A DNA stretch of 42,860 bases from Stenomitos frigidus ULC18 (lineage in GTDB: Bacteria; Cyanobacteriota; Cyanobacteriia; Leptolyngbyales; Leptolyngbyaceae), in the NCBI RefSeq assembly GCF_003003795.1, contig NZ_PVWK01000111.1:1-42860 (forward strand). Direction: 5' to 3'. Both the position numbers and the translations under genes were made by a program. Below the pieces are notes generated by a model that worked only from the letters and a program-made list of their open reading frames with translations, searched no databases and had not been told where the DNA came from. Each line of letters opens with the position of its first letter. The first letter of the stretch is position 1. Of this stretch, positions 4,837 to 28,311 are shown piece after piece.

Positions 4837-4903
4837 GGGCACTCTAAGACAGGACTGCCCACGCCTGAGCTGGGAAGCGATCGCAACCGCCCGCTCTCCG
4901 TTC
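4837..4903 (+). promoter_or_regulatory. Repeated structured leader, copy A (before the small terminase)
   Basis: Segment 1 is GGGCA (4837-4841). Segment 2 is TGCCCA (4856-4861). Segment 3 is TGGGAAGCG (4871-4879). Segment 4 is CGCTCTCC (4892-4899), four bases before the GTG at 4904. Segments 1 and 2 pair, as do 2 and 3 (CCCA with TGGG) and 3 and 4. In 3:4 seven of eight positions pair, including one G-T. Compared with the other copies, two base pairs in 3:4 have changed on both sides. Confidence 0.7.
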
Positions 4904-5593
4904 GTGGATACACAGCCCGTTTGGTCACTACAGCCAGGTGAACCTGAAAAGTGGTTCGCTCGGTTTGAACGCTATCGACTTCAGGGCGAAGGGCGATCGC
5001 TAGAGGCTGTCTACCGCAGCGAAATCGCAGCAGACCGCAACCGATCGCAGCGATCGCAGCGCCCCAGCTCGCAATGGTACGTGATTTCTAAACAGTGGCG
5101 TTGGCTGGAACGGGCAACGGCATGGGATCTCGCAGAATCGAAGCAAGATGAGTCGCTGCTGCGATCGGCGCGGGTAGAGTTGGTGCAGCGCCAGGTCGCG
5201 AGCGAGAACGAATGGCTCACTCGACAGCAACGACTGCGCGAGCAGGCCCAAATTGCTTTTGAAGATTACCTGTTTGGGCGTGTCACTGAAGTTCGCCAGA
5301 TGGAAAAGCAGAAAGACGCGCTAGGTACTGAAGGCGAGATTCACAAGCTCATAGAAGAATCCACCGTAACGATCACCAAGCACACACCGCAATGGGCGAT
5401 CGAGCGGGTGCTTGGCAAACATGACCACGAGAAGCATCTCACGGCACTCTACGGACTGACGCAGCAGATTATGCGGCTTGAGGGTGACTCAGACGACTTA
5501 CGGCAAATTAAGGCATTGATTCAAGCGACTTTAGAGGGCCTCTTGCTAGAAGTCGGAGCGGCAGAGATGCGCGCCGTGATGGCTTTGACGTAG
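4904..5593 (+). CDS. Terminase small-subunit-like DNA-packaging protein
   Basis: This 229-residue protein starts with GTG. Its N-terminal third has WYVISKQWRWLERATAWD, the pattern Trp-x-x-x-x-x-x-x-Trp-x-x-Arg-Ala-x-x-x-Asp seen in many phage DNA-packaging proteins that act as small terminases and recognise the genome for cutting. The rest is strongly helical and charged, as expected of a DNA-binding oligomer. The start lies directly after repeated leader copy A, and no Shine-Dalgarno sequence is visible. The large terminase is about 10 kb downstream instead of adjacent. The assignment rests on the motif and on the presence of other head genes. It could instead be another helical phage DNA-binding protein. 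Confidence 0.6.
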   Translation: MDTQPVWSLQPGEPEKWFARFERYRLQGEGRSLEAVYRSEIAADRNRSQRSQRPSSQWYVISKQWRWLERATAWDLAESKQDESLLRSARVELVQRQVASENEWLTRQQRLREQAQIAFEDYLFGRVTEVRQMEKQKDALGTEGEIHKLIEESTVTITKHTPQWAIERVLGKHDHEKHLTALYGLTQQIMRLEGDSDDLRQIKALIQATLEGLLLEVGAAEMRAVMALT

Positions 5594-5634
5594 TGTGTCT
5601 AACCGAGCATCGCTGGCAGACAGCCGCAAAGGGG

Positions 5635-7239
5635 TTAAGGCTGAGCGGTTGTGATGGGGTTCCTAGTAGGTAGCTTAAAGTAGAACTTAAAGGCTGGCCA
5701 ACTTTCCGCCAAGGGTCGCTTAATGCCCTTGCAAAGGTAAAGCGGTAACGTACTTTTGAGTCCAACAACTTTTTCGTGAGTCACGATCGCGATGGGCTCA
5801 ACCCGTTCAAAGGTTTGACGGAGAAAGGTAAGATTACCACCCAGGCTGAGGACTACCTTGCCGGAATAGTCCCGTGGACCCCAAAAGTAGTAGCCTGTGT
5901 GGCCACTAATTGCCTTCGGCAAGTGATAAGCAGGTCCGAAAAAGTCGATCGCGCCAGCATTGTCATAACTCCATGCCAAAAGGGCGCAATCAGCCCGATC
6001 GCTAGGTGAAAGCTGCTGATAAACCTGGGCAACCTGAGCTACAGTGTCTTCCCAGCCCAGCATTAAGCGGAAATGCCAAGGGGCTTGGGCCGCGTTTTCC
6101 TGATCAAATTTAGAGAGGGTGGGTGGTCGGTAGACGGCATTAGAGTATTGGATCAAGGCATTGAGCGGGAGGATGGGCAGTCCGATCGGCAACAGCACAA
6201 GACCACTCATGAGTAAGGCAAGCAGCGTGATGTATTTCCAGGTAGGGAACTGCTGCAACTTTGGTTCGAGGAAGACGGCTCCTGCCGCAAGCAGCATGGG
6301 ATAGATGGGCAGTAAATAGTAGAAGCGCCCTTCAAAGAAAAGGAACCAACCCAAAATAATGATGTAGGACCAGCCCAGCGCGCGATAGGGCTTGCCATCA
6401 CGGGTGAACAGATAGTAATAGAGACCAGAGGCCCAAACGGGAACAGCAGCAGGGTTGGTCAGAATGATTTGTTGCAGGATTAAGTCGAGCGCGGATGGCA
6501 GCAGTCCTTTTTTCTCGTAAAGATTCGATTCACGCTGATGTTCGAGAAACGGCCAGTGGTGATTGTTTTGCCACAGAAGGGTAGGGGCACAAAGGCCAAG
6601 CGCCAGGATACTACCGAGGAGCAGCCAGCGATTGAATAGGAGTCTGTGGGCAGGCGTGATTAGGATGCCAAGCAAGAGGCTGAGGATGAAGAAAAAAATA
6701 GAGAACTTGTTCATCAAGCCAATGCCAGCCACTACGCCAGCGATTGCCCACAGAGAAAGGCGTTCGGTTTTGAGTATGCGGAGGGTGAGATAAGCGCACA
6801 AAGCCCAGAGCAGTGGCTCAAAGGCATTCATGGTCAGGACGGTCTGGAGAAACAGGTAGGCGGGTGCCAGGATCACGGCGATCGCTGCGATGGCTTGAGC
6901 AAGGCGACCGCCACCGAGCTCACGGGTAATTAGTCCGGTCAGGATAACGGTGCAGGCTCCAGCGATCGCGGGAAAGAAGCGAATGGCAAAGAGAGAGTCT
7001 CCCAGCAGCCAACGACTGAGGTTAGCGATCGCGGGAGTAAGGGGTGAGCCTTCCGCGAAGCCCCAGTCGAGGTGTTCGCCAGCCGCCATGTAATAGAGTT
7101 CGTCTCCGAAGTAGCCGTATTGATGATTGGTAGCGAAATGAAGTAGGAGCTTGCACAGACCCAAGTAACACAAGATAGCAATGTCGCTGCTAAACCATTG
7201 GCGCTGGACGGCTTTGGGCGTTGAGGGAGCTGCAACCAT
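5635..7239 (-). CDS. GT39/ArnT-type membrane glycosyltransferase
   Basis: This 534-residue integral membrane protein has about ten or more hydrophobic segments. Its first extracytoplasmic loop reads YGYFGDELYYMAAGEHLDWG, followed by a PLTPAIANL segment. An acidic Asp-Glu pair in this loop and the aromatic-rich surroundings are typical of the dolichyl-phosphate-mannose mannosyltransferase/ArnT superfamily (GT39/GT83), which moves a sugar from a polyprenyl-phosphate carrier to a lipid or protein on the outer side of the membrane. The acceptor cannot be told from sequence. The gene is convergent with the small terminase. In a phage-derived region such an enzyme could alter the cell surface, but it may simply be host cargo. 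It is full length and apparently intact. Confidence 0.85.
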   Translation of the reverse strand: MVAAPSTPKAVQRQWFSSDIAILCYLGLCKLLLHFATNHQYGYFGDELYYMAAGEHLDWGFAEGSPLTPAIANLSRWLLGDSLFAIRFFPAIAGACTVILTGLITRELGGGRLAQAIAAIAVILAPAYLFLQTVLTMNAFEPLLWALCAYLTLRILKTERLSLWAIAGVVAGIGLMNKFSIFFFILSLLLGILITPAHRLLFNRWLLLGSILALGLCAPTLLWQNNHHWPFLEHQRESNLYEKKGLLPSALDLILQQIILTNPAAVPVWASGLYYYLFTRDGKPYRALGWSYIIILGWFLFFEGRFYYLLPIYPMLLAAGAVFLEPKLQQFPTWKYITLLALLMSGLVLLPIGLPILPLNALIQYSNAVYRPPTLSKFDQENAAQAPWHFRLMLGWEDTVAQVAQVYQQLSPSDRADCALLAWSYDNAGAIDFFGPAYHLPKAISGHTGYYFWGPRDYSGKVVLSLGGNLTFLRQTFERVEPIAIVTHEKVVGLKSTLPLYLCKGIKRPLAESWPAFKFYFKLPTRNPITTAQP

Positions 7240-7357
7240 AAGATCTCTTCAAACCTAGAAAAATGTGCAGAGTCACCGAACAAACCTCTGACCTGTGCCT
7301 CACCATATCAAGAAATAGTCTTTGACGGAGAGAAAGGTTTCTGCGATCGCTCACATG

Positions 7358-7380
7358 AAAAAGCCCCTCCTCAGAGGGGC
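7358..7380 (-). terminator. Intrinsic terminator for the 7416-7715 gene
   Basis: On the minus strand, GCCCCTC, loop TGAG and GAGGGGC make a perfect seven-pair stem followed by TTTTT. It lies about 35 bases after the stop of the small coiled-coil gene. Confidence 0.9.
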
Positions 7381-7415
7381 ACAGCAGAAAGGAGCAATGA
7401 ATCGAACTGAGCGGT

Positions 7416-7715
7416 CTAGCTTGCTATGGGTATGACTGGCGACGGTGTCGCGTCTGCCGTCGATGTCGCAAGTGGTGTCGTGCTATCGGGAGTGATCGAG
7501 GCTTGTAGCGCCTGGAGTTGGGCAAGCAAAGCTTGAGCTGTTTTATCAGTTTCTGCCTGGTGTTGCTGGGCGTCTGCAAGCGCCTTATGTGTCGCATCGT
7601 CATCAGCCTGTATAGTCGCCAGTTGCTGAGTTAAGGCGGTCAGTTTTGCCGTGTTCGTCGTGATCAAGCCGACTAAAGCCTGCACGATCGCGTAGATTTG
7701 CGCCAAAGGATCCAT
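7416..7715 (-). CDS. Small coiled-coil hypothetical protein
   Basis: This 99-residue protein starts MDPLAQIYAIVQALVGLI. About 70 residues follow with Ala, Leu, Gln and Thr in heptad-like order (LTALTQQLATIQ, ADAQQHQAETD), then a Thr/Pro/Ser-rich tail. It has no membrane segment or signal peptide. A strong terminator follows, which supports it being a real transcription unit. It sits between GT39 and the phage gene at 7899, on the opposite strand to both of its phage neighbours. The function is unknown; small coiled-coil proteins of this kind occur in phages as chaperones or minor structural proteins, but nothing here decides that. Confidence 0.55.
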   Translation of the reverse strand: MDPLAQIYAIVQALVGLITTNTAKLTALTQQLATIQADDDATHKALADAQQHQAETDKTAQALLAQLQALQASITPDSTTPLATSTADATPSPVIPIAS

Positions 7716-7830
7716 AAGCTAAAGCCTCTGCTAAGGGTTTCTTCAGTGTGCCTGTATTTTCAAAATCGAATCTGTCAATATTGCAGCCTAAAATCAAGCC
7801 ATTGTCAAATTCTCGCCGACCGGTCGATCG

Positions 7831-7898
7831 GGGCACTCTAACCACAGGACTGCCCACGCCTGAGCTGGGATGCTTCACGCCTCACCAAGCATCCCCTC
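7831..7898 (+). promoter_or_regulatory. Repeated structured leader, copy B
   Basis: Segment 1 is GGGCA (7831-7835). Segment 2 is TGCCCA (7851-7856). Segment 3 is GGGATGCT (7867-7874). Segment 4 is AGCATCCC (7888-7895), three bases before the GTG at 7899. The 3:4 stem is eight perfect pairs with a 13-base loop. There is no Shine-Dalgarno sequence between segment 4 and the start codon. Confidence 0.75.
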
Positions 7899-8717: not shown

Positions 8718-8731
8718 TCCTAGAGGAACTT

Positions 8732-8977
8732 ATGGGCAACGCGATCGACAAACTCAAACAACTTCGTCATGATCTCGTCAGTGGTCAGAAACAGATCGAT
8801 GATGCCACAGCGACTGGTAAAACATCGCTTATGAACGTGCTTAAAGCGCATGGCATTAAAGCAGAGAAGGTACTCGAATTTGACTTGAACGGCAATGGGA
8901 TTTTCCTGATGGGTGGCAAAAAATATGCCTGTCAGATTGAGTCAGATGGCGTTAGCTACGGTGAAATTAAAGCGTAG
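8732..8977 (+). CDS. Small phage-associated hypothetical protein
   Basis: This 81-residue protein starts with an ATG preceded by AGAGGAA, a good ribosome binding site, 14 bases after the previous stop, so the two are probably co-transcribed. The N-terminal half is a charged helix (KLKQLRHDLVSGQKQIDDA). The C-terminal half is a small beta-rich unit (FDLNGNGIFLMGGKKYACQI). It is not recognised. The next phage gene has its own repeated leader, so this two-gene unit may end here. Confidence 0.55.
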   Translation: MGNAIDKLKQLRHDLVSGQKQIDDATATGKTSLMNVLKAHGIKAEKVLEFDLNGNGIFLMGGKKYACQIESDGVSYGEIKA

Positions 8978-8984
8978 TGATGCT

Positions 8985-9024
8985 GCACGGACTGCCCACT
9001 CCTTAGCTGGGACGTTTTACCCAT
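8985..9024 (+). promoter_or_regulatory. Repeated structured leader, copy C (divergent)
   Basis: The core runs from 8989 as GGACTGCCCACTCC followed by TTAGCTGGGACG. CCCA (8994-8997) can pair with TGGG (9008-9011). Segment 1 is absent, and only GGG with CCC (9020-9022) remains of the 3:4 pairing. The ATG follows at 9025. This is the weakest copy structurally, but its position and core sequence are the same as in the others. Confidence 0.55.
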
Positions 9025-11177
9025 ATGTTGGGTCATCCTGTGGCTACCATTACGCGCAAGGCTGTCTACGAGGCAGTTAGAAGCAAACTGCCCTCAAGTA
9101 AGCAACGGGCAACCCTCAGCCAGAAATTAGGCAAGCCCTGGCACCATGCCAGCACGGAGGCGATCGCTCAGGCAATTGGGCTCGAAGGGGCACCGCATAA
9201 GCCCAGCAAGAACGCGGCGCATTCTGTAGCCAAGCGTTACGGCGTGGCGAAGTCCTTCGCAGCTGATACCATCGCCACCAAACTGACCAGCGCGGATCAG
9301 GGCCATCAGATCCAGGTCCGTCAGCGCATCGTGCGAGCGGTCGATCGCGCCATGCGAGTGAAGGCAAAGGAATTAGGGCGCAAACTCACGCCTGAGGAAA
9401 AGCGCGGGGTAGCCGTGAAAGCCTTAAACACTGAAGTACAGGCAATCAAGGCAGGAACGCCAGAGCAGAAGCCCCAGCGCGGCAAGCCGAAGGCGCAGAG
9501 CAAATCAGTTGAACAGAAGCCAGTCTCGTTAGAACTGCCACCCAAACCAGTCGATCGCACTTCTGAGCCACCTCATTTGCAGCCAGCAGAGACGCAACAC
9601 TTACAGCTGGATAGCAAAGCAGAGCCAGGTAAGGCCACTTCGACCGAACTGCCGCCCATGACGATCGACCAGATCAGCACGATTGAGGAGCGGGCGAAGT
9701 TTGCCGAGCAGGAAGCCAAAGAGCAGCAGATGAAGGGCAACCACATCGGCGCGGCTGCTTGGTCAGAAGAAGCCAGCAAGGCGCGTAAGGCAGCCATCCA
9801 ACGCGATCTAAAAGCACTCGACACGACACAGACCTCGCTCTTTGGCGTCACTGAGCACGCCAGTGATCTGCCGCTCTTCAATCAGAGCGAAGCAGAACCC
9901 GTGCCAGAACAAAAGCCAGCGATCGGGCAACTCGCACAGGTCTCCACGAGCAGCATTAAACTGGACCCGGAACGCTTTCAGTACAAAGTCGTCCACGGCA
10001 AAGCGGGTGAGACCGGCTCGCTCACGGGCGTCAAAAAATGGGACCCGGATATCGCTGGCATTGTCCAGGTCTGGCATGATCCGCAGGATGGGCAGGACTA
10101 CGCCGTGAATGGACATAACCGCGCAGCGCTCGCCAACCGGCTGCAGGTGCCAACACTTGATGTCCGCTACATCCACGCGAAGGACGCTACAGAGGCGCGA
10201 TCGATTGGCGCACTCTGACCAACATTGCCGAAGGGCACGGCACCGCCCTGGACGCGGCAAAATTCTTCAAAGATTCAGGACTGACTCAGCAGGATCTGGA
10301 AGCGCGCGGCATTCCATTAAAAAGTTCTGTCGCAACGGACGGCGTTGCACTCTCGCAGCTAGAGCCCTCGCTGTTTAACAAGGTTGTGAGCGGCGCACTG
10401 CCACAAGAGCGCGCCGTGACCATCGGCGGCAGTGGCTTGGACCACACCCAGCAGCGATCGCTCATAGACTTGATTGACCAGCAGGAGAAACGCCGTAAGC
10501 ACGTCACCAACGACACGATCCGCGAGCTGGCGGACGGCGTGAAGGCCGCCCAAAAGAGTGTAGAGACTCAGATCGACCTGTTTGGCACGAGCGAAGTAGA
10601 GCAGAATAATGCGATCGAGCGTGCCAGCTTGCAGGCGGAAGTCAAGAAGAAATTGAGTCGCGCGAAGAACCTGTTTGGCACCGTCAGCAGCTCGCGGGCA
10701 GCCTCCGAACTAGAGCAGGCGGGTAACAAGATTGACGTGGATACCTCGCACCAGATCTCTAAGGATGCTGAACTCGCACTCAAAGTGTTTGATCAGCTCA
10801 AGAACCAGACTGGACCCGTTTCAGATGCCATCAACCGCGCGACTGAGCGCATTGCAAGCGGCGAAGACCGCAGGAAAGTGACCAATGACCTCCACCAAGA
10901 AATTCTTACCACTATCCCCGCAGTCCTTGGGCTTAGCCGCCAAGGATCGAGTAGCGAACGCAGTGAAACAGCATCTGTATCACCAGCACTGCCACCAGCA
11001 GGGGCTGACGAGCTTCGATCCGAACCCATCGCCAGCAGTGGGCCAGCCGTTCAAACGGCTGGCAGCCGAGGACGAAGCCGGAGCGGACAATTAACCGCGA
11101 TCGCTCGCACCAGTGGCATACCCACGCAGCAGCTAGTTCAAGCAGCCAGACGCCTTAAAGAGAAGGCACAAGCCTAA
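9025..11177 (+). pseudogene. ParB-fold phage polyvalent-type protein, frameshifted at 10213-10216
   Basis: Two frames together encode one protein of about 717 residues. Frame 1 (9025-10218) starts with a basic, Ala/Lys-rich region and a Pro/Gln/Glu linker. It then has a ParB/sulfiredoxin-like domain at about 305-398, including DYAVNGHNRAALANRL, the Gly-His-x-Arg turn of ParB-type nucleases. It stops after ARSIGAL. Frame 3 continues at once with TNIAEGHGTALDAAKFF and runs to 11177. Removing one CT from CTCT at 10213-10216 restores a single reading, so a 2-bp duplication is the simplest cause. Large proteins of this type in phages are thought to be injected with the genome and to act early in the host. 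Repeated leader copy C lies directly upstream. Confidence 0.75.
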
Positions 11178-11206
11178 CCAGTACGGCGGTGATTGTGTAC
11201 GATCGA

Positions 11207-11234
11207 CAAAAACAAAAGCCCTCCGCAGAGGGCT
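11207..11234 (-). terminator. Intrinsic terminator for the DUF2887 gene
   Basis: On the minus strand, AGCCCTC, loop TGCG and AGGGCT closing as GAGGGCT form a seven-pair stem followed by a T-rich tract. It lies about 32 bases after the stop of the gene at 11266. Confidence 0.85.
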
Positions 11235-11265
11235 ACCTGATCTTGATGGTATGGATCAATGAAAG

Positions 11266-12087: not shown

Positions 12088-12252
12088 CTACTGTACTGGT
12101 GAAGCAGTTTGATTGTAAGCGGTCAGTAGTACATTTGCAGCAGTAGCCTTGCATCATCAGCAATTTTGGGGGGTCGATCGCGGCTATTGCACTCTCACAC
12201 TGAATGTCGCGGTTTCCTTCTCAGCTCTACCACATCCTTTTATCTCACAAAA

Positions 12253-15200
12253 TCAGCTTAATCCTAATTTCTCTTTGAGGGCCTCTGGTACATTAATAGC
12301 TGCATTTAGCCCGTTACTGTTATCCCACCGAGTCTCTTTATTCCAGACAACACTCTGTAGGTTCGCGCCATTCAGAATTGCTCCACTCAAACTTGCCCCA
12401 TTCAGATTTGCCTCATTTAACCTTGCCCCATTCAACTTTGCGCCATTCAGATTCGCCCCCTCCAAACTGGCGCTGCTTAGATTCGACCCCTCCAGCCAGG
12501 CCCGCTCCAGATTCGACCCATTTAGCTTCGCGCCATTCAGATTTGCCCCCTCCAGCCATGCGTCATTTAGATTCACCTCGACCAGACTCGCCTTATTTAG
12601 CCTTGCCCCTTGTAGACTTGCCTCACTCAGATCTGCCCCATTCAGCCATGCCTCTTCTAGCCACGATTCAATCAGATTTGCCTCAATTAGACCCGTCCGC
12701 TCTAAGCTTGCCCCACTCAGCCTTGCCCGCTCCAGATTTGCCTCACTTAGATTTGCCCCATTGAGCTGCGCCTCATTCAGATTCGCCTCTTCTAGATTCG
12801 TCCCAACCATACTTGCCCCATTCAGATTTGCCCCATTCAGATTTGCCCCTTCCAAATTCGCTCCATTCAATCTCGTCCGCTCCAGAGCTGCCCGCTCTAG
12901 ATAAGCTCCTGTTAAAGACCCGTTAGTTAAATCCTGGCCAATCAAGTTACAGTTAGCTAAATCAAGCCATCCTAAACAGGAAACAGCCAATGTGTTCTTC
13001 TCCCAGTTTGTGCGCTGTCCCTGAATTCTAATCAGCCAACTACCGAAGGTTTCAGGAGACGACCAAGCAATGTGAGAAATTTCTTGCGTATGTCGGGCGC
13101 AGGCGTTGAGGGCAGCTAGTAAGGATTCCTCCGCATTGCGGGCTTGACGGTGTTCTTCGTAATAAGTTTGGAGTTTTAGCTCCTCCATAGGCATTCCAGC
13201 TTTCAGCATGGTGCCCATTAAAGCGCTGAGCGTTTTCTGCCACTGGCTAATTCGTTCGCGCGGCTGAAGCTGAATCTCATCGCAAAGGAACCGAAAGAGA
13301 TATTCGTCCATCAACGACGGACCACACAGCATCGCCCAGTGCTTCAAGGCTTGTCGCGCATTCCAGCCCTGGTCTAAGTCTTGTTGGTGGCTCTGCATCT
13401 CATTGTGAATGCGTCCAATACCGCGAACAATACGTTTTGCCGTAAGATATTCTCCAAAGCTTTTATGGGTGAACTCAAACGTTTTTTCGCCATCGGACTG
13501 CAACCCACTCTGGCGAAAGTAGAATGCTGTGAGCAGTCGCGTCACGCCCGCTTGTGCCCCCTCCTGGAAGATGTCCAAGAGCCGTCTTAAACCATCACTG
13601 CTAGCACAGTGAGACTCAATTTCACGAACAGTGGTGGTGCGTCCATCACCGTGCCACGAGGAAAGCGCAACCTCTTCCAGAATGCGAACAAAGTTATCTA
13701 AGGTAACGCCTTGTAAAGAAGGATGTTGACGACGTGACGCCCAACCACGTTCATGTATGGCTCTGAGCAGATCTGTATAAATTTCGTTTAAGTTGGTAGT
13801 CTCAGAAATGCTTAGTCTTCCTTGGCCATAGCTGAGCGCTACTAAATAGTTCAGGAGCGGCTGTCCTGTAATCTCGATGAGATTACCTTGATCCAGCTCC
13901 TTTGGCAGGCCTGTATAGGCCCGTCCGCTTACGATGCCGTAGTTCTGCCACCAACGATCGCGATGATCGTCAGCTAATAGCTTATGGTCATCAACGTACT
14001 GAGTCCGTTCATGCACTGGAACAAAATAAGGCAAGATATGCAGAATTTGTCCCTCCCGCTGAAACTCAACACTGTTCGCCTGAACTGCTACATCGCGTCC
14101 ACTGATCAATATTTGTAAACGGGTAGTGCGCTGATTCAGTCGATAAAGCTGCTTCTGTGCTTCCCGCACAAACTGCTGCGCTGCCTCGATTCCTACCTTA
14201 CCTTGCTTCGCCAACTCATCTAAGCCATCAAAGATAAGCAGCACTCTCGGTTCTGCTTGCTCCCGTTCCAGTGGGTTGGGTGGTAATAGCCCATCGGGAT
14301 CGGACTGTACAAACGCGCCAACTGCCTTGTCTAGCTCTGCACTCAAGTCAAAGAGGTGTAGCGGGATATATAACACAGGCACCTGAGCTGTTTCAGCTAG
14401 AGTAGCTGCCAGAATTTTAGTAAACGATGACTTGCCGCAGCCCGGACCGCCACAAATAACACGGATCGCATCTTCGCGATCAGCTTCATCCACCCAGGCC
14501 TGCAACGCCGCACTCAAGTCAACCACTACCCGCTCTTCTTCTGGTCGATCAAGTCCTATGCGATAGCCAGTCTCTTGTCCCGGCTGCTTTTTACGGGTGT
14601 AGTAGGCGCACAGTGGAACATACACCTGTTTCAGCCCGAAGGCTTCCAGGAACATGGGTTCTTCAACTTGCTGTTGCAACAAGGCACGATAGCGCAACCA
14701 CGCCTGCTCACGTTCGCTTGCTTTGGTAAAGGGTGTATCGAGCTGCGTTTTGAGACACTCATAATCTTTGGCACGGGCACGCCATTCTTCATGCAGGGCG
14801 AAAACAAAATACGTGGGCAGGCGATCACTGATTCCCTTTGCCTCCACTGGCTTTTCCACAAAGCTCTCCAGCCAGGCTGTGAGCGGCACTTTAAAGGCAT
14901 TCAGTATAGGCAGTTGCTTGGGAGTGCGGAAAAAGTCCTGATTGATGGTTAGCTCAGTTCTCTCTAACGACCAGTCAATATGCTCGCAAAGGCTGCTCAA
15001 ATCCTCTGGCTGTCTGACCAAAAGCTCTTTGTTGTCCTTCAAGAGTCTTGTAATGGCTCGATCGAGAGAGCGATAAATCAGCAGCCAAGCAATCTGCCCA
15101 GGATCAGCCGCTAAACCAACCGCAACGGATGCCTCAACGAGATCGCCCGCAACACCTTCCCATTTGCCGATCGCGCCATTAATGACACCTTTCCCCAGTG

Positions 15201-15288
15201 CTTTGAAGAGGTCTTTGAAATTTGCTTTGAGAGGACGATTCCAAGCAGAAATGGGCTTGCTAACCGAAAATCCAGACCCAGTATTCAT
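12253..15288 (-). CDS. NACHT STAND NTPase with pentapeptide-repeat C terminus
   Basis: This 1011-residue protein has three parts. The N-terminal 260 residues are helical and unassigned, and would be the effector or oligomerisation part. A NACHT-type P-loop ATPase follows, with Walker A GGPGCGKS (about 280-287) and Walker B LLIFDGLDEL (about 350-359), then a helical arm to about 770. The last 230 residues are pentapeptide repeats of the A(N/D)LxG type (LNGANLEGANLNGANL), which fold as a right-handed beta helix and would act as the sensor. NACHT proteins of this architecture are known or suspected anti-phage sensors that oligomerise on binding a phage product. It lies on the minus strand between the ParB-fold gene and the large terminase. 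The opposite strand gives long false open frames because of the repeats. Confidence 0.85.
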   Translation of the reverse strand: MNTGSGFSVSKPISAWNRPLKANFKDLFKALGKGVINGAIGKWEGVAGDLVEASVAVGLAADPGQIAWLLIYRSLDRAITRLLKDNKELLVRQPEDLSSLCEHIDWSLERTELTINQDFFRTPKQLPILNAFKVPLTAWLESFVEKPVEAKGISDRLPTYFVFALHEEWRARAKDYECLKTQLDTPFTKASEREQAWLRYRALLQQQVEEPMFLEAFGLKQVYVPLCAYYTRKKQPGQETGYRIGLDRPEEERVVVDLSAALQAWVDEADREDAIRVICGGPGCGKSSFTKILAATLAETAQVPVLYIPLHLFDLSAELDKAVGAFVQSDPDGLLPPNPLEREQAEPRVLLIFDGLDELAKQGKVGIEAAQQFVREAQKQLYRLNQRTTRLQILISGRDVAVQANSVEFQREGQILHILPYFVPVHERTQYVDDHKLLADDHRDRWWQNYGIVSGRAYTGLPKELDQGNLIEITGQPLLNYLVALSYGQGRLSISETTNLNEIYTDLLRAIHERGWASRRQHPSLQGVTLDNFVRILEEVALSSWHGDGRTTTVREIESHCASSDGLRRLLDIFQEGAQAGVTRLLTAFYFRQSGLQSDGEKTFEFTHKSFGEYLTAKRIVRGIGRIHNEMQSHQQDLDQGWNARQALKHWAMLCGPSLMDEYLFRFLCDEIQLQPRERISQWQKTLSALMGTMLKAGMPMEELKLQTYYEEHRQARNAEESLLAALNACARHTQEISHIAWSSPETFGSWLIRIQGQRTNWEKNTLAVSCLGWLDLANCNLIGQDLTNGSLTGAYLERAALERTRLNGANLEGANLNGANLNGASMVGTNLEEANLNEAQLNGANLSEANLERARLSGASLERTGLIEANLIESWLEEAWLNGADLSEASLQGARLNKASLVEVNLNDAWLEGANLNGAKLNGSNLERAWLEGSNLSSASLEGANLNGAKLNGARLNEANLNGASLSGAILNGANLQSVVWNKETRWDNSNGLNAAINVPEALKEKLGLS

Positions 15289-15535: not shown

Positions 15536-15598
15536 CATCGTGGTAACGCGGCGTTCAAGGGTGTTTGCTTGATAGTGAACTATCCGCTCTTCAAGACC

Positions 15599-15807: not shown

Positions 15808-15872
15808 GGGCATTCTAGACCGTAGGACTGCCCACGCCAGAGCTGGGATGCTTTTATAGCAGCATACTGACA
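15808..15872 (+). promoter_or_regulatory. Repeated structured leader, copy D (before the large terminase)
   Basis: Segment 1 is GGGCA (15808-15812). Segment 2 is TGCCCA (15829-15834). TGGG (15844-15847) can pair with CCCA. Of the 3:4 stem only ATGCT (15848-15852) with AGCAT (15861-15865) is retained. The ATG is at 15873. The loop inside 2:3 reads CAGA instead of CTGA. Confidence 0.65.
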
Positions 15873-19900: not shown

Positions 19901-19996
19901 CCACTTTCAGGTAGAACCTGGCCTCGAACCTAAAAAACAAGGCTTGGTAGGAAAGCAAAAGCAGCCGTAATCCCTGTGATGAATCTCACTGCAAGT

Positions 19997-21205: not shown

Positions 21206-21210
21206 GACTT

Positions 21211-21696: not shown

Positions 21697-21850
21697 TGCC
21701 GTGCCCCTGGATAGGGTGACGCGACCCATTTAGGAGCCTCAACAGTCTCGATCTCCCCTGTCCATTTGCCAGCCGAGTCGTAGGGGATCTTGACCATCCC
21801 TCCTGCTGCTGTCCAGTAATAGTCTGCTTCTCGCGTGTAAGAGTCAGGGA
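21693..21850 (-). pseudogene. 3' end of a truncated gene, fused to the TIR-WD40 junction
   Basis: A frame of about 50 codons reads SYTREADYYWTAAGGMVKIP and ends in PGARQ, with its stop overlapping the next start as ATGA. It has no start of its own: upstream it runs into the broken end of the TIR-WD40 gene at about 21850-21860. The overlap with an intact downstream gene shows it was the last part of a real upstream gene. The 5' part is missing from the window. Confidence 0.55.
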
Positions 21851-23172
21851 ACCCGATCACGGAATGCGGGACTGAAACTCACGCTAATGACCAAAGACTG
21901 ATGCCCGGTGAAGGTCTGGAGAGCCTTGCCCGTCGCCACGTCCCACAGCTTGATGATCTTGTCCCCACTGCCGGAAGCGAGGGTCTTGCCATCGGGACTG
22001 AAACGCACGCTAGTGACAACATCCTGATGCCCGGTGAGGGTCTGGAGGGCCTTGCCCGTCGCCACGTCCCACAGCTTGATGGTGTTGTCCCCACTGCTGG
22101 AAGCGAGAGTCTTGCCATCGGGACTGAAACTCACGCTCCAGACAGCCTCCTGATGCCCGGTGAGCGTGTTGTGTTCACTGACAACATTCATAGCTTGCCA
22201 CAGTGCTGCAATCACTTGGGTTTGCAGATTCGTCTTGGTCAAGCCGGTTCGATCCAATTGTTTGAGCTGCTGCCCTGCCTGCAAACTGACTAACAGAGAT
22301 TCAAAGACTTGACCGGAAAGAAAAGCCCCCTCAGCAGCCGTACTAACTAAGCGCACATCGGCCAGGGCTAACTTTTGCTCTGACTGGCGCTCGTTTTCTT
22401 GAATCCGTTGCTGCGTCACGATAACGGCCCCGATCGCCGCCGCCACGATCGCACCCAAGCCCACAAACCCAGCGCGTACAATCCGCCGCGCTACCTGATC
22501 CGCCTTTTGCACCGCGAGGCTAGTCTGCAAATATTCCACCTGTAGCTCTGTAGGGCGTGGTGTCTTGCCTTGCTGAAACCACTGTTGCGCTTCGGTCAGG
22601 TCTTGCCCCCGCAACACGGCTCCAGTATCCCGCTGCTTGTTGTCCCAGTCGATCGCCCGTTGCAAAAGCCGGGTATGCAGTTTCACATAGTCGAGGTCGG
22701 TGTCGATCGTCTCCAGCAAACTTTGTAACGCCGACTCAAAGTCATCCGTCTCGCGGCAAAAGAGCCAGTTGATTTCTTGCAGGGCTGGATGCACGTCGGC
22801 GATCGCAAACCCCTCACGGAAGACGATCGGTACTAAGCGCTTTTTACACTGCACGGCATGGTCAATTTCGTCTCGACAGACTTTAGAGGCTACAGAATCA
22901 GGACTGAGCACAAAGGCAAACGTGTTGGTCCCCTCAATCCCCCGCTGAATCTCCTGCCACCATTTTTCGCCCTTGGCAATACTGGCCCAATCCACCCAAG
23001 TGTCTCGTTGCCGCACTTGGATCGCCTCACTCAGCCGCCGTACAAAGTCAATGTCCTTGCGGGAATAAGAGATGAAGACATCAGTAGTGCCCTTCGGTAA
23101 GGCTATCTTTGGTGCTGAGCCAGCCTTGGCAGCGTCCGTCATTACGGTGGCACAAAAGTAATTCGTACCCAC
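21844..23172 (-). CDS. TIR-transmembrane-WD40 protein, truncated in the third WD repeat
   Basis: This 442-residue protein starts with a TIR domain at about 29-160 (TTDVFISYSRKD, then DTWVDWASIAKGEKWW). A Cys-x-x-Glu (VCRDE, E102) sits where catalytic TIRs have their NADase Glu. A membrane span at about 233-252 and a helical linker follow. The C-terminal WD40 part has two full repeats (about 338-379 and 380-421) and then breaks after SVSFSP into AFRDRVP and a stop. Family members usually have seven or more repeats for a complete propeller. TIR-WD40 proteins are common in filamentous cyanobacteria and are thought to act in signalling or abortive defence. The missing repeats probably disable sensing. 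An alternative start is MTDAAK at 23142. Confidence 0.8.
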   Translation of the reverse strand: MGTNYFCATVMTDAAKAGSAPKIALPKGTTDVFISYSRKDIDFVRRLSEAIQVRQRDTWVDWASIAKGEKWWQEIQRGIEGTNTFAFVLSPDSVASKVCRDEIDHAVQCKKRLVPIVFREGFAIADVHPALQEINWLFCRETDDFESALQSLLETIDTDLDYVKLHTRLLQRAIDWDNKQRDTGAVLRGQDLTEAQQWFQQGKTPRPTELQVEYLQTSLAVQKADQVARRIVRAGFVGLGAIVAAAIGAVIVTQQRIQENERQSEQKLALADVRLVSTAAEGAFLSGQVFESLLVSLQAGQQLKQLDRTGLTKTNLQTQVIAALWQAMNVVSEHNTLTGHQEAVWSVSFSPDGKTLASSSGDNTIKLWDVATGKALQTLTGHQDVVTSVRFSPDGKTLASGSGDKIIKLWDVATGKALQTFTGHQSLVISVSFSPAFRDRVP

Positions 23173-23786: not shown

Positions 23787-24920
23787 ATGAACGGAACCTC
23801 TTTCTTCGATGAGCAAAAAGAGCAATCTGCAATAAAAGCTAGAATTGTTGAAAAGTATTTCTGGGTTTGGGCAAAAGTCATTATTCCAACTGTTAAGAAA
23901 TCGGCTCCAGAGCCAAGAATTGCTTATATCGACCTTTTTGCTGGACCGGGGCGGTATAAAGATGGCTCAAAATCAACTCCAGTAAAAGTCTTGGAAACTG
24001 CTAGTTCAGAACCAGATATGCAAAATATGCTGGTATCTATATTTAACGATGCTGACCCAGAGAATGTTAACTCACTTCGGAACGCTATAGAGTCAATTCC
24101 AGGAATAGAGAATCTGAAATATTGTCCTCAAATACTTAATAATGAAGTCGGAAACAGTATAGTTGAAACATTTCAAGCGGCCAAATTAATCCCTACTCTG
24201 TTTTTTGTTGACCCTTGGGGCTATAAAGGATTATCTCTGCAACTTATCAATTCAGTTGTCAAAGATTGGGGATGTGATTGCATCTTCTTCTTCAATTACA
24301 ATCGCATCAACATGGGTTTAAGCAATGATGCTGTTAAAGAACATATGAATGCTCTGTTTGGACAGTTACGGGCGGATCAAGTTGGTGAACAATTAAAAGG
24401 ACTTAATCCGCAAGAGCGTGAATTGACAGTTGTAGAAGCAATTTGTGAGGCTTTGGAAGAAATGGGCGGTGAGTATGTTCTCCCATTTCGCTTCAAACAT
24501 GAAAGTGGGAATCGCACTAGCCATCATCTAATCTTTGTGAGCAAACACGTCAAAGGCTACGAAATCATGAAGGAGATAATGGCTAAAGAGAGTTCTGAGC
24601 AGATGCAAGGTGTAGCATCTTTTGAGTACAATCCTGCAACTCTTCAACAACCGCTCCTTTTTGAGTTAACTCGTCCTCTTGATGAGCTGGAAACTATGCT
24701 GCTGGACACCTTCTCAGGAAGAAGCATGACTATGGAGGAAGTTTATAACCAGCATCATGTTAGGAAGCCTTACATTAAAAAAAATTACAAGGCTGCTCTC
24801 GGTAGTCTTGAAGCTCAAAGTAAGATTTCAGCAGATCCACCTGCTAACAAACGTCGAAAAATGAAGGGAGAAATTACGTTTGCAGATTCAGTAAAAGTAG
24901 TGTTTCCAGCTAAGCAGTAA
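23787..24920 (+). CDS. tcmP: Three-Cys-motif partner protein TcmP
   Basis: This 377-residue protein has a methyltransferase-like fold with IAYIDLFAGPG (about 46-56, the SAM-binding motif I) and FFVDPWGYKGL (about 139-149, the position of the catalytic DPxx motif). A C-terminal winged-helix-like part follows from about 300. This is the order found in TcmP proteins, named because they are encoded next to the three-Cys-motif DUF5131 protein, which here overlaps it tail to tail by 11 bases. The activity of the pair has not been settled; both occur on phages and mobile elements. Its AT-rich codons and lack of HIP1 sites contrast with the phage genes around it, suggesting separate acquisition. Confidence 0.88.
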   Translation: MNGTSFFDEQKEQSAIKARIVEKYFWVWAKVIIPTVKKSAPEPRIAYIDLFAGPGRYKDGSKSTPVKVLETASSEPDMQNMLVSIFNDADPENVNSLRNAIESIPGIENLKYCPQILNNEVGNSIVETFQAAKLIPTLFFVDPWGYKGLSLQLINSVVKDWGCDCIFFFNYNRINMGLSNDAVKEHMNALFGQLRADQVGEQLKGLNPQERELTVVEAICEALEEMGGEYVLPFRFKHESGNRTSHHLIFVSKHVKGYEIMKEIMAKESSEQMQGVASFEYNPATLQQPLLFELTRPLDELETMLLDTFSGRSMTMEEVYNQHHVRKPYIKKNYKAALGSLEAQSKISADPPANKRRKMKGEITFADSVKVVFPAKQ

Positions 24921-25686
24921 GTTCCAGTTTACCTGAACGTCTTGCTGCTTTCAGTGGAATACTTCCCCATTTCTGAACGTGCTGATTCCAGGCATCAGGC
25001 ATCTCATCCCAGATCTCACCATTGAGTAATTTACCTCCCGCTTTCGGCGTTCTTCCTCCAACTTGCTTGAAGAAAAACGCTACTTCTGCATTTTTACACT
25101 GATCACGGATATCCTCTGCCCAGTTGAGGTTCATTGAGCGATGTTTTTGTCCAGATTCCCCCCCTACAATAACCCAGTCAATTCCAGACAAATCAAGTCT
25201 TAGCGCTCCTAAAAGTGGCTCGCATGAAATGAAGCGTACTGAAACAGGAACCAGACGCAGACATTCAATACGATCGACGTAGTTTTGATTCTCAACAGAC
25301 ACACCTAACCAAACGTTTTCTGGAAAATCTAACTTATAAGATAAATCACGTAGACGCTCATGCCGCTTTGTCAAAATTTGATACACGTGCCAAGGTGTTG
25401 AGCGAATGATAGAGAAGACTTCCTTGATAAATTCGAGGGGCACTTCTTCATGGAAAAGGTCACTCATTGAGTTAACGAAAACCCGGCTTGGAGTGCGCCA
25501 ACGCAGCGGCTCTCCCAATCTGTTTGGATGCAAAGTCAAGACAAACCCATTAGAAAAGTTTTTAGGAAAACGCTGTGTAAGAGTTTCAGCATAGCAGTGT
25601 AAACACCCTGGGCTAATTTTGTCGCAGCCCGTTGTAGGATTCCAGGTTTTGTCGGTCCACTCAATACCAGTGTGTATGCTAGACAT
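24910..25686 (-). CDS. Three-Cys-motif protein, phage Gp37/Gp68 (DUF5131) family
   Basis: This 258-residue protein starts MSSIHTGIEWTDKTWNP with GGAG a few bases upstream. Its three Cys (C21, C28, C31 in GCDKISPGCLHCYAETL) give the family its name and could bind an iron-sulfur cluster, as in radical SAM-like enzymes. Further family marks are SMSDLFHEEVP, YQILTKRHERL and IVGGESGQKHR, the last followed by a Trp-Ala helix. Members are frequent on phages and defence islands, paired with TcmP as here. The pair is convergent rather than in one operon, which is less usual. The gene appears intact. Confidence 0.88.
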   Translation of the reverse strand: MSSIHTGIEWTDKTWNPTTGCDKISPGCLHCYAETLTQRFPKNFSNGFVLTLHPNRLGEPLRWRTPSRVFVNSMSDLFHEEVPLEFIKEVFSIIRSTPWHVYQILTKRHERLRDLSYKLDFPENVWLGVSVENQNYVDRIECLRLVPVSVRFISCEPLLGALRLDLSGIDWVIVGGESGQKHRSMNLNWAEDIRDQCKNAEVAFFFKQVGGRTPKAGGKLLNGEIWDEMPDAWNQHVQKWGSIPLKAARRSGKLELTA

Positions 25687-26270
25687 ATTTCAACTCCGCA
25701 AGCTACATCCTTGGCAGATATTACCTGCCTGGAATTTTATAGTCTATTTGTACTATACCATTTTGGTAAGCACATCTCTTACTGCACCCCATTTCTACGC
25801 TGGGCGAAAGCAAATAAGGTGCAATGTGTGCAAAACATTACAGTCTTTCAAGAAAGCAGAGGTTGTTTGCGAGACCATAAACTACGCTTATGAAATTTAA
25901 GCAACGATTGCTTCGCAAATCTCTGTACTTACTTAAATACAAACTTTAGCCTTGGACATAATTTGGCTTATATCGCTCATGGGCTATCGTCTGAAACCTC
26001 GATTCTCTCGTTTGGTCTAGCTCCTACGTGCAAGCTGAAACCCTTATTGTTACGTTGCACTTCTGCGGGTTGCCGCAGTTAAACATCTTTAGGGACCACT
26101 AGATTTAGGCTTCTGGGCTACTGAAGCTTGGCGCTATCCATACACCTTATGCCGCTAGCTCCCGCCCATACCGATTACTGCACGCGCCTATTTTTGTATA
26201 CGGTGCGAACTGAAAAAATGAAGCTATTGAAAGCCTCATCGCTCATGGATATTGCTGTAACTTGTTGGAG
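25687..26270. other. 584-base gap containing a fragment of the gene at 27024
   Basis: No full gene is recognised. The stretch is AT-rich next to DUF5131 and becomes phage-like at 26113-26188, where it repeats the leader and first codons of the gene at 27024 with about 85 percent identity. Confidence 0.5.
26113..26188 (+). repeat. Direct repeat, left copy (decayed 5' end of the 27024 gene)
   Basis: These 76 bases match 26987-27063 with about 11 differences and share two exact blocks, ATACACCTTATGCCGC and ACCGATTACTGCACGCGCC. The copy includes a start codon and encodes a similar beginning (TDYCTR), but the frame leads nowhere. HicBA lies between the two copies. Confidence 0.75.
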
Positions 26271-26489
26271 CTACAACCGCTCCCACTCATCTCTGCTAAT
26301 CCCAGCCTGACGCAGAATTTTGCTCAGCAAAGTGCGGTCAATATCGCGATCATGCGGGTTAGGGATAGTAAGCTTCAGTCCGCCCCTGGTCATATACTGA
26401 TGCTTTCCACCGGGGTAGGGGCCATCAAACCCAGCTTGGCGCAGAGCGAAGACCATGTCCCGCCACTTGATCGGTCCAAAGGCTGGCAT
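26271..26489 (-). CDS. hicA: HicA-family mRNA interferase toxin
   Basis: This 72-residue protein has the HicA double-stranded-RNA-binding fold pattern: IKWRDMVFALRQAGF as the first helix, GGKHQYM with the catalytic His (H30), then a beta strand (LKLTIPNP) and HDRDIDRTLLSKILRQAGI. HicA cleaves mRNA and arrests growth until neutralised by HicB. Its ATG overlaps the stop of the upstream antitoxin as TGATG, so the toxin is translated after the antitoxin; this hicB-hicA order is the reverse of the classical hicAB operon but is known elsewhere. Confidence 0.92.
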   Translation of the reverse strand: MPAFGPIKWRDMVFALRQAGFDGPYPGGKHQYMTRGGLKLTIPNPHDRDIDRTLLSKILRQAGISRDEWERL

Positions 26490-26740
26490 CAAGCAACCTC
26501 TTGTTGCGGTGCGTTCAAGTCAATGCCATCGATGACAGGTAGCGTATGCCCGAGACGTAACCCCAGCACCAACCAACCTTCAAGGGCATCCTGTACGTTT
26601 TCGCGGCAGTCTTCCAGAGTGTCACCTGTGCTCCACACACCAGGGCAATCAGGAATCTCGCCATAGAAAGCAGCATCTGAGTCCTGTAAGAACTCGTACG
26701 TTGCTTTGTGCATAGCAGCTTGGATGTAGTTAATCAGCAT
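26489..26740 (-). CDS. hicB: HicB-family antitoxin, short form
   Basis: This 83-residue protein has the HicB partial RNase H-like fold with AAFYGEIPDCPGVWSTGDTL followed by a helix (EDCRENVQDALEGWLVLGL). It binds and inhibits HicA. It lacks the C-terminal DNA-binding domain present in longer HicB proteins, so autoregulation may be weak or indirect. The start may be at 26740 or at the internal Met at 26713. The cassette sits between two copies of a phage-gene fragment and is a plausible addiction module for the element. Confidence 0.9.
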   Translation of the reverse strand: MLINYIQAAMHKATYEFLQDSDAAFYGEIPDCPGVWSTGDTLEDCRENVQDALEGWLVLGLRLGHTLPVIDGIDLNAPQQEVA

Positions 26741-27023
26741 CAGTCTCGGATGTACGCGTACAGAAGAATTAGCTTCGAGTGTCTAAAACGTTCGTTTTGG
26801 TGGTCCGATCATAGGGCGAGGGTGGAGCGGCTAGACTAGCAGTTAAGCAGCAGCAATCCCGCTACTACCAATGAGTATATTACTCAATCCTGCTGGGGCT
26901 TCCTCTGCCGAGCGTTCTAGGGGCATTAATCGCCCTTACACTAGACGACTTCCCAATCGTAGCGCTTGTGCTAATAGCGCCTGGTGCTGGGCACACTGAA
27001 GCCTAGAGCTACCGATACACCTT
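26741..27023. other. Gap holding the hicBA promoter and the right repeat copy
   Basis: About 280 bases. The left part must carry the hicBA promoter on the minus strand. The right end is the second copy of the direct repeat. Nothing else is recognised. Confidence 0.4.
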
Positions 27024-27063
27024 ATGCCGCCAGCTTCCGCTCAGACCGATTACTGCACGCGCC
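26987..27063 (+). repeat. Direct repeat, right copy (start of the 27024 gene)
   Basis: The intact copy of the 76-base repeat at 26113-26188. It covers the 37 bases before the start codon and the first 13 codons of the gene at 27024. Confidence 0.75.
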
Positions 27064-27359
27064 AATGGGTCGAGCAGTACATCGCTGATTCCCTCACCCA
27101 TGCGATCGAGTGCCGTTTTAAGCCACTCTTAGAACGCCAATGCAATACCGCGATAGTCGATGCAGTCGCCGCATCCAAGCGCGAAACCCATCGCGCCATC
27201 TCCGGCTTTGCAGCACGCCTCTTTCACCAGCTACCGCAACTCATCGCCCGCACCTTGCAGAGTTCTAACCCAGACTTCCTTATTGACTCTGAAGCGCTGG
27301 CAGGACAACTACAAACCGCCTTTGAAGATGTGCTAGCAGTCCGTAAAAAGGTTGTTTAG
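27024..27359 (+). CDS. Small phage-associated hypothetical protein
   Basis: This 111-residue, mostly helical protein starts with an ATG without a good ribosome binding site. A two-helix pattern (QWVEQYIADSLTHAIECRF, then TAIVDAVAASKRE) and a charged end suggest an oligomer. It is not recognised. It precedes the scaffold-like gene by 87 bases, in the position where phages often have a small head protein or the end of a portal operon. It lacks the repeated leader, but its 5' end has been duplicated on the other side of HicBA. Confidence 0.55.
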   Translation: MPPASAQTDYCTRQWVEQYIADSLTHAIECRFKPLLERQCNTAIVDAVAASKRETHRAISGFAARLFHQLPQLIARTLQSSNPDFLIDSEALAGQLQTAFEDVLAVRKKVV

Positions 27360-27382
27360 CACCCCGCCCGATCGTTCCTGAT

Positions 27383-27446
27383 GGACTGCCCACGCCTGAG
27401 CTGGGATGCCTAAAACTCACTACGCCACACTTGTGGAGGCATCCCC
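27383..27446 (+). promoter_or_regulatory. Repeated structured leader, copy E (before the scaffold gene)
   Basis: The core starts GGACTGCCCACGCC at 27383. CCCA (27389-27392 region) can pair with TGGG (27402-27405). GGGATGCCT (27403-27411) pairs perfectly over nine bases with AGGCATCCC (27437-27445), one base before the GTG at 27447. The Shine-Dalgarno GGAGG (27435-27439) runs into the stem, so folding would hide part of it. No GGGCA segment 1 is seen. Confidence 0.78.
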
Positions 27447-28214
27447 GTGGACTATCTGACGAAAGACGAAGCCAAAGAATTATTTTCTAGCCTGCTTACT
27501 GAAGGACTGGGGCAACTGGAAACCAACCTCTCTCGCCAGCTGCAGACGCAAGCCGAACAGCTGAGTCGCCGCGCTGAGTCAAGTTCTAGCCTTGATTGGC
27601 TCGATAGCCTGATTCAGGAAGCCGAAGGGCTGGAAGGTATAGAAGAGGACACAGAGACTCCTGACGCTGCTTACGATGAATCCGATCTAGGGGACATCGC
27701 CAACAATCCCGCGATCGCTCAGCTCAAGCAAAAGCTTTCAACGCTGGAGCGCGAGAACACCCAATTTAGAACTCAGTGGCAGCAAGAGCAGGCGCGCCGC
27801 GAGCAGGCAGAAGAAGACACGCGCGTAAACGGTATGAGAGCCACCGCGATCCAGGATCTCAGCCTGGGTAATCGCGTGGTGAATCCCGCGCAAATGCTCT
27901 CGCTCTTGCTCCAGGAAGGCAGAGTCATTGAGCAGGGCGATCAGTACGTCGTCAAAAAAACTGACAAACACGGTGATCTCTTCGTACCGCTCAAAGATGA
28001 GCTGGATGGTTTATTAACCACTGATTACAGCCACTTTGCCGCTCGCCGTGAGGGCACAGGCAGCGGTGCCTACCCTGGCAGTCCACCCCGCACCCCAGTG
28101 ACATCCTTCAAGTATTTCGACCATGACGGCAAGCCCACCGTTGATCCAGGGCAAGCCATGCAGACCGATCGCGCGGGCTACCTGCAAGAATTGGCCGCCG
28201 TACAACCACGCTAA
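27447..28214 (+). CDS. Capsid scaffolding-like protein
   Basis: This 255-residue acidic protein starts with GTG and ends 97 bases before the coat gene. It is helical and coiled-coil in its middle (LKQKLSTLERENTQFRTQ, then QEQARREQAEED), with an acidic Glu/Asp-rich region before it (EGLEGIEEDTETPD) and a flexible Gly/Pro-rich segment near the end. This composition, and the position directly before the coat protein, are typical of tailed-phage scaffolds, which guide capsid assembly and then leave or are cleaved. Sequence similarity alone would not prove it. It has its own repeated leader with the best stem of all copies. Confidence 0.7.
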   Translation: MDYLTKDEAKELFSSLLTEGLGQLETNLSRQLQTQAEQLSRRAESSSSLDWLDSLIQEAEGLEGIEEDTETPDAAYDESDLGDIANNPAIAQLKQKLSTLERENTQFRTQWQQEQARREQAEEDTRVNGMRATAIQDLSLGNRVVNPAQMLSLLLQEGRVIEQGDQYVVKKTDKHGDLFVPLKDELDGLLTTDYSHFAARREGTGSGAYPGSPPRTPVTSFKYFDHDGKPTVDPGQAMQTDRAGYLQELAAVQPR

Positions 28215-28231
28215 AGTCTGACTGCCTTGTT

Positions 28232-28311
28232 GGGCATGCTGAAAGAATCAGAATCGGATTGCCCACGCCAAAGCTGGGATGCTTCAAACTTGACTCCTGC
28301 GGAGCATCCCC
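28232..28311 (+). promoter_or_regulatory. Repeated structured leader, copy F (before the coat gene)
   Basis: Segment 1 is GGGCA (28232-28236). Segment 2 is TGCCCA (28260-28265). Segment 3 is GGGATGCT (28276-28283). Segment 4 is AGCATCCC (28303-28310), one base before the ATG at 28312. The 3:4 stem is eight perfect pairs. GGAG (28301-28304) is the likely Shine-Dalgarno sequence at the base of that stem. The loop in 2:3 reads CAAA. Confidence 0.78.

Follow-up and report, generated by a model that had tools for sequence, protein, structure and literature searches.

By layout, the nearest analogue of the element described here is the start-associated sequences (SAS) and extended start-associated sequences (ESAS) of cluster K mycobacteriophages. 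Our element is a short leader repeated 5' of packaging, head and other genes of a prophage in the cyanobacterium Stenomitos frigidus ULC18, on contig NZ_PVWK01000111.1, whose 42 860 nt form the stretch of DNA analysed here (the window). According to the accessible part of the published account, SAS is 13 bp long, contains AGGAG and precedes non-structural genes at 3–7 bp from their start codons, and departures among the ESAS repeats do not, per the authors, support RNA pairing. As far as that part of the account goes, the leader resembles SAS/ESAS in being a short conserved sequence repeated 5' of many start codons in one orientation, in having a subset of copies with an upstream module that holds a (here putative) promoter and an inverted repeat, and in its proposed role in translation initiation. 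It differs in having a core of 19–30 nt that lies about 50 nt from the start, mostly without a Shine–Dalgarno sequence, in serving structural and packaging genes as well, and in an inverted repeat that covaries as a helix. The 13 bp SAS sequence GGGATAGGAGCCC was absent at 3–7 bp before the starts in the 35 leaders of our collection, as read off the listed sequences with no separate search. By this analogy, the leader would be a case of start-associated control in phages that differs from SAS/ESAS in sequence, start distance and gene class.

RNA sites at or near a start codon that control the translation of late or structural genes include the MS2 coat hairpin and the T4 RegA sites; the leader differs from these operators in having two exclusive hairpins that share one segment, and its trans-acting factor is hypothetical. 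The HK022 put RNA is a two-stem RNA near the transcript starts of a temperate phage that acts on polymerase, whereas the leader, likened to it by description and not by sequence comparison, is tied to start codons. Stoperators of mycobacteriophage L5 and other cluster A phages, which act in transcription regulation and have been contrasted with SAS, resemble the leader, in the accessible part of the source, in that a single phage carries a short, asymmetric and oriented site many times over, whereas the leader has a variable half-site spacing and RNA-type covariation (PMC3203893). Structured 5' leaders have also been proposed in cyanobacteria or their phages (glnA, Downstream-peptide, manA, wcaG and PhotoRC; PMC2864571), and in the accessible part of that report these candidates, unlike our leader, precede metabolic, photosynthesis or small-peptide genes.

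An earlier reading of the window from its letters alone (the sequence-only reading) had not recognized the motif as a known class, and comparison with Rfam 15 agrees: no match was found in the window at gathering scores, or at E<=5 in eight loci with copies from five of the six genomes that carry the leader (all but G103). Among the top-ranked results of literature searches, no account of the leader element was found. We read the leader as a unit of phage late-gene control that would combine a promoter with a translational RNA switch linked to the start codon, and put the probability of this reading at about 0.52.

A leader repeated 5' of prophage genes

The window is the entire contig C45 of a cyanobacterial genome of 7.0 Mb (G000). 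Scanning its sequence, we found six cores (copies A–F) on the plus strand, each directly 5' of its gene, and all at the places where the sequence-only reading had put six near-identical cores. Each leader is described here by its hairpin 2:3, of the CCCA:TGGG type (general form YCCN:NGGR), by a downstream pairing, 3:4, which uses the same GGR as 2:3 and has a 3' arm ending at or over the start codon, and by a box of the pattern GGGNANNNTR 5' of the core. CCCA:TGGG is present in all six window copies, as had been claimed. The features are as follows.

4837-4846, + strand: promoter-like box GGGCACTCTA of copy A
4852-4903, + strand: leader of copy A; core 4852-4878; 2:3 is 4858-4861 with 4871-4874
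4904, gene start behind copy A: small terminase (PHROG 6299, E 3e-5)
7831-7840, + strand: promoter-like box GGGCACTCTA of copy B
7847-7898, + strand: leader of copy B; 2:3 is 7853-7856 with 7866-7869; 3:4 is 7867-7875 with 7887-7895
7899, gene start behind copy B: no family match
8989-9039, + strand: leader of copy C, without box; 2:3 is 8995-8998 with 9008-9011
15808-15817, + strand: promoter-like box GGGCATTCTA of copy D
15825-15872, + strand: leader of copy D; 2:3 is 15831-15834 with 15844-15847; 3:4 weak
15873, gene start behind copy D: large terminase (PF03237/PF17289, PHROG 2)
27383-27446, + strand: leader of copy E, without box; 2:3 is 27389-27392 with 27402-27405; 3:4 is 27403-27411 with 27437-27445
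27447, gene start behind copy E: scaffold by position, no family match
28232-28241, + strand: box GGGCATGCTG of copy F, 14 nt from the core, more than usual
28256-28311, + strand: leader of copy F; 2:3 is 28262-28265 with 28275-28278; 3:4 is 28276-28284 with 28302-28310
28312, gene start behind copy F: coat (PHROG 283)

Copy C lies 11 nt past the stop of the open reading frame (ORF) at 8732-8977, and copy E 23 nt past the ORF at 27024-27359. For the gene behind copy C, GTG 9040 is a likelier start codon than ATG 9025: its homologue on another contig (C55) aligns at the GTG, which also gives the leader the usual length.

Copies A–F are the sole matches to GGACTGCCCACGCC in the window at zero or one mismatch; at up to three mismatches there are 13 matches against a shuffle mean of 4.5 (largest 10), and GAGCTGGGATGC at up to two mismatches likewise gives 13 (shuffles 5.6, largest 12). 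A repeat finder placed A–F in a single 35 nt family with 71–100 % identity to the reference copy. Four further copies occur elsewhere in G000, two on contig C11 (3.2 kb) and two on C55, the latter preceding homologues of the genes behind copies B and C.

Covariance models were used to search cyanobacterial genomes, a check which the sequence-only reading had proposed and which yielded more copies in five other genomes. Model R1, built on nine G000 copies with pairings 1:2 (box with arm 2 of the core) and 3:4 included and 2:3 left out, recovered 10 copies in G000, and of the 42 genomes of the order searched with it, G029 and G017 contained clear relatives. Model R2, which held the core and helix 2:3 only, was run on 388 genomes of the class and matched nine, a tally that is no census because R2 missed the copies of G124. 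Those accepted were G000, G029, G017, G021 and G103, with the match in G028, a CRISPR spacer, counted separately; the matches in G019, G269 and G284 were rejected once their surroundings were read. Eight R1 or R2 matches (L037, L039, L040, L041, L044, L079, L080 and L081) fall in unrelated sequence and were for that reason taken as false and removed before the counts; three-mismatch matches in G124 and G103 were inspected and discarded. The coat protein of the lineage is present in four of the 388 genomes, the fourth being G124, of another family, whose coat is 47 % identical to that of the window; the leader is present there although R2 did not find it. Scans of IMG/VR with the large terminase and with an alignment of three coats gave no relative, and a four-coat alignment gave one, IMGVR_UViG_3300036391_000001, which is the G124 contig (first 200 bases alike). 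No coat relative was found among the INPHARED phages.

The resulting table holds 35 copies, of which 10 are in G000, eight in G029, 12 in G017, three in G124 and one each in G021 and G103. Four of them (T2, T3, P7 and P8) were taken from a scan for the box and recognized by eye, and are biased toward hairpins. In the four multi-copy genomes the copies are oriented and lie 5' of several start codons, and across the 35 the core starts 42–67 nt 5' of the start codon, which bears out the shared structured leader directly 5' of start codons proposed in the sequence-only reading. A cyanobacterial prophage group carries one short structured leader, repeated 5' of many genes and usually accompanied by a promoter-like box.

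Such repeats could mark module boundaries and promote recombination between phages, with no regulatory function. In the window, cargo genes do separate genes that bear the leader, and copies of it are found in different prophages; yet neither helix covariation nor a fixed distance to the start codon is expected of a boundary repeat, and we consider this explanation very improbable.

Hairpin 2:3 covaries

Covariation of 2:3 was scored on 20 copies whose collection predates the use of any model with 2:3. In these copies 97.4 % of cells pair, and the covariation score is 0.216 against 0.100 ± 0.023 for shuffled sets (reached by 0 of 500), falling to 0.021–0.026 (about 0.02–0.03) when the arms are slid. 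Over all 35 copies 135 of 140 cells pair, a number that within-phage shuffles never reached in 10 000 trials (mean 129.7, largest 134). Pair 1 is C-G in 30 copies and U-A in five; pair 4 is A-U in 14, G-C in 13, U-A in two and C-G in one, with mismatches in the other five (Bp, P4, P5, P7 and T3). Within G029 alone, pair 4 occurs as A-U, U-A and G-C. The pairing between segments 2 and 3 proposed in the sequence-only reading is therefore supported by covariation across phages.

An inverted repeat of this kind could also be a DNA-level operator, CCCA-N-TGGG with its box being bound by a phage transcription regulator in the manner of stoperators. The site is repeated, every copy faces its gene, the core is asymmetric and a promoter-like box adjoins it, all of which would suit an operator. 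A dimeric regulator would be expected to hold its half-sites at a fixed spacing, whereas the loop of 2:3 varies from 4 to 12 nt (usually CGCC-N(n)-AG); compensated changes occur inside one phage, where the regulator would be identical; and the copies are tied to start codons, with a box-to-core distance that itself varies from 4 to 14 nt. We regard the operator as improbable: variable spacing, together with the exchange of pairs within a single phage, fits a hairpin in RNA better than a DNA site for a dimer.

One spacer of a 25-repeat CRISPR array in G028 (contig C116; L038:9775-9832), about 46 nt long, matches the core of the leader, from which it follows that some cyanobacterium was immunized against a phage via the leader. 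The spacer reads CTCA:TGAG, in which pair 2 of helix 2:3 has changed on both sides and still pairs.

Pairing 3:4, folding and the start codon

Evidence for 3:4 comes largely from the copies taken together. In a set of 30 copies, segment 3 pairs downstream more strongly than it does after shuffling (mean z −0.94, Stouffer −5.2), and over 35 copies the summed stem is 249 against 210.5 for shuffled downstream regions (largest of 500, 227); single bases, not dinucleotides, were shuffled in both tests. When downstream regions were swapped among copies, 249 was reached once in 2000 trials, and the 15 copies found without a 3:4 model gave p 0.006. The coat leader of G124, found via its protein, has a 9 bp 3:4, GGGATGTCC:GGACATCCC, which ends one base before the ATG and in which three pairs are changed on both sides relative to GGGATGCTT:AAGCATCCC. 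Individually, 3:4 reaches p <0.05 in nine of the 35 copies (B, E, F, Bp, Cp, K1, K2, Q6 and T1). The sequence-only reading had called 3:4 strong in A, B, E and F and weak in C and D; this stands for B, E and F, which are above chance, and for the weak C and D, whereas the 3:4 of copy A exists and is not above shuffled sequence (p 0.32 and 0.19 in two tests). The statistics support 3:4 in aggregate, with a compensated change in one distant phage, and not in all copies. Since both pairings need the same GGR, 2:3 and 3:4 are mutually exclusive, as had been anticipated by analogy with attenuators and riboswitches.

Partition-function folding gave P(2:3) >0.5 in 30 of the 35 cores when the core was folded alone. 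In the full leader this held for four copies, and the GGR paired downstream at P >0.5 in 25, against 13.6 ± 2.9 with shuffled downstream regions (largest 22 among 100 sets). Because the core folds 2:3 and the full leader captures the GGR downstream, the conserved hairpin is predicted to be favoured early and lost later unless it is held.

A leader of this kind need not switch at all: its hairpins could protect the 5' end and aid ribosome start without a Shine–Dalgarno sequence, constitutively favouring translation and stability, for which the 5' hairpin of the T7 gene 10 mRNA is a comparison. Consistent with this, a Shine–Dalgarno match (<= −5 kcal/mol) is rare among leader genes (6/35; other ORFs, 44/119; shuffled leaders, 3.8 %), the distance to the start codon is near-constant and internal copies lie between tightly packed genes. 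A stable hairpin 0–4 nt before or over the start codon should, on the contrary, hinder initiation; the shared GGR makes the hairpins exclusive; and a conserved 2:3 that is not the predicted ground state would be needless in a purely stabilizing leader. We consider a constitutive role unlikely, if a serious alternative. A Shine–Dalgarno sequence bridged from the 5' GGA was considered and dropped, the GGA being lost in T1–T3, P4, P7 and P8.

The leader might instead act in cis on RNA polymerase, as an antitermination or polarity site like the HK022 put RNA. It would be a short two-stem RNA near transcript starts and is repeated within operons, as such a site could be. What the copies keep constant, however, is their relation to the start codon rather than to where the transcript starts. 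In several of them the 3' arm extends as far as the start codon, which in P6 and Q1 is next to the arm or within it. We consider such a site quite improbable.

The 5' box

The box precedes 26 of the 35 copies; its columns that are set by the pattern are invariant by construction. In the window, copies A, B, D and F have GGGCA 5' of the core, as the sequence-only reading had noted, with a wider gap in F; C and E lack it. That reading made the box the first arm of the RNA switch, a part of its scheme that we reject: in the 20 copies, 1:2 shows no double change, its covariation (0.072) is that of shuffled sets (0.077), and the 87.1 % of cells that pair are explained by conservation alone.

Its distribution, which statistics support as promoter-like, points to another role. 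Nine of 30 copies lie no more than 11 nt behind the nearest upstream ORF on the same strand, and the box is missing from seven of them; it is present in 19 of the remaining 21 (Fisher p 0.0005). It also occurs 5' of phage genes that have no leader, 32–36 nt before the start at 10 of 11 hand-picked sites. On the G124 contig, 11 of 45 box occurrences lie 20–90 nt before an ORF start (60 permuted patterns: mean 1.5, largest 6), and eight near-start boxes remain once the three leader copies are subtracted. The corresponding counts are 12/47 in G029 and 10/37 in G017, where leader copies account for most of the excess. Three boxes of the window stand apart from a leader.

26989-26998, + strand: box without leader, 35 nt before the ORF at 27024-27359, the gene directly upstream of copy E
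4814-4823, − strand: box without leader, 34 nt before the ORF at 4358-4789 (− strand)
1394-1403, + strand: box 61 nt before the integrase ORF at 1455, with no recognizable core between

Because most copies inside operons lack arm 1 and leaderless genes have it, the box appears to fit a promoter −10 element better than an RNA arm. It also shows the enrichment at a set distance before starts, including those of leaderless genes, that a −10 element should have. The conserved A and T sit at what we take to be the expected A−11 and T−7 of a −10 element, and from this placement we infer a transcription start near (A)GGA. A phage-encoded sigma-70 factor was considered as its reader and rejected: none of 70 listed PF04542 matches lies in phage regions (other polymerases were not searched for). 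A promoter for a single-subunit phage RNA polymerase of the T7 type was considered too.

The start of one gene in the window is partially duplicated (26106-26191 and 26989-27066; 72 nt at 86 % identity), and a degenerate box, GGGCTACTGA, precedes the first copy. In G029 (L032–L034) inverted repeats CCGTCA..TGACGG, confined to this phage, lie upstream of several boxes and are perhaps terminators or operators.

A model for late-gene control

According to the favoured reading, the box would, at the head of a transcription unit, act as a −10-type element read by the host polymerase, and the transcript would begin near (A)GGA and carry some 50 nt of leader. Operon-internal copies of this leader lie between genes and lack the box. 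The leader RNA would first fold the short hairpin 2:3. Once the next 25 nt or so had been made, the GGR of segment 3 would be recaptured downstream by 3:4, whose 3' arm at or over the start codon would hinder the ribosome. A factor of lytic growth could bind and hold 2:3, leaving the start codon free, and because the same hairpin precedes many genes, these would respond jointly.

Several observations weigh against this model. Copies within one phage are related, which inflates the shuffle tests, and only four phages have more than one copy; those of G021 and G103 lie outside proven phage surroundings. In the 20-copy set, further pair types in 2:3 (4 against 3.6 shuffled, 275/500), a weak measure, give no support, and double changes, seen in 2 pairs against 0.6 (16/500), give mild support only. 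For 31 of the 35 full leaders, folding predicts a ground state other than hairpin 2:3, so that a factor or kinetic control would be needed to make sense of it. The 3:4 pairing is above chance individually in just the nine copies named above, and near or below chance in many, such as D, P2, P5, Q4, Q5, Q9 and Q10. Outside G124, enrichment of the box comes mainly from the leader copies that gave the pattern; no recognizable −35 accompanies it, and none of the listed family matches to sigma-70 region 2 falls in the phage regions.

In the usual description, a single late transcription factor switches on the late genes of a phage. More tentatively, we speculate that this lineage possesses a decentralized late regulon in which many late genes each have a private promoter and a private copy of the RNA switch, and in which one trans-acting partner recognizes the conserved hairpin; the virion genes could then be switched jointly at translation even where cargo splits the late operon. 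If true, the leader would represent a new class of phage cis-regulatory RNA. In the favoured reading, too, a single RNA structure, present in many copies tied to start codons, seems to serve the phage lineage as a shared post-transcriptional control point. This would show a way in which the late genes of a prophage could stay jointly controlled despite the cargo genes interleaved with them. The leader may reveal an RNA-binding late regulator and offers a sequence handle on unexplained start-associated sequences of other phages; because it is small, repeated and covarying, simple reporter tests are feasible.

Genes behind the leaders and cargo

Family searches named the small terminase, large terminase and coat among the leader genes of the window, and portal and coat among those of G017. 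Other leader genes include ORFs of 1322 to 1419 aa, read as tape measures by length, the scaffold assigned by position, proteins with Rho_N or DnaJ domains and small ORFs; that of G103 has a SocA/Panacea domain. Several gave no match in these searches. The proteins of leader genes at L035, L036, L075, L032 and L033 open with a similar segment, MATxxxLRxQAKARKIKGYSRMNKxQLMSALG, which has a Rho_N score in two proteins and falls just below the cut-off in a third.

Several further loci of the window are notable. An ORF on the − strand at 12253-15288 encodes a NACHT protein with an NNH3 N-terminal domain and pentapeptide repeats, for which PADLOC gave no match, and another (21844-23172, − strand) encodes a TIR domain followed by WD40 repeats, with 126 bp tandem repeats in its 3' part. 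At 23787-25686 a GMT-wHTH protein (match to the PADLOC candidate PDC-M30A) and a DUF5131 protein (PDC-M30B/M41B match) form a convergent pair inside the prophage, flanked by late genes; it is likely a cargo defence pair. A HicA/HicB-like toxin–antitoxin pair (26271-26740, − strand) also lies between late genes.

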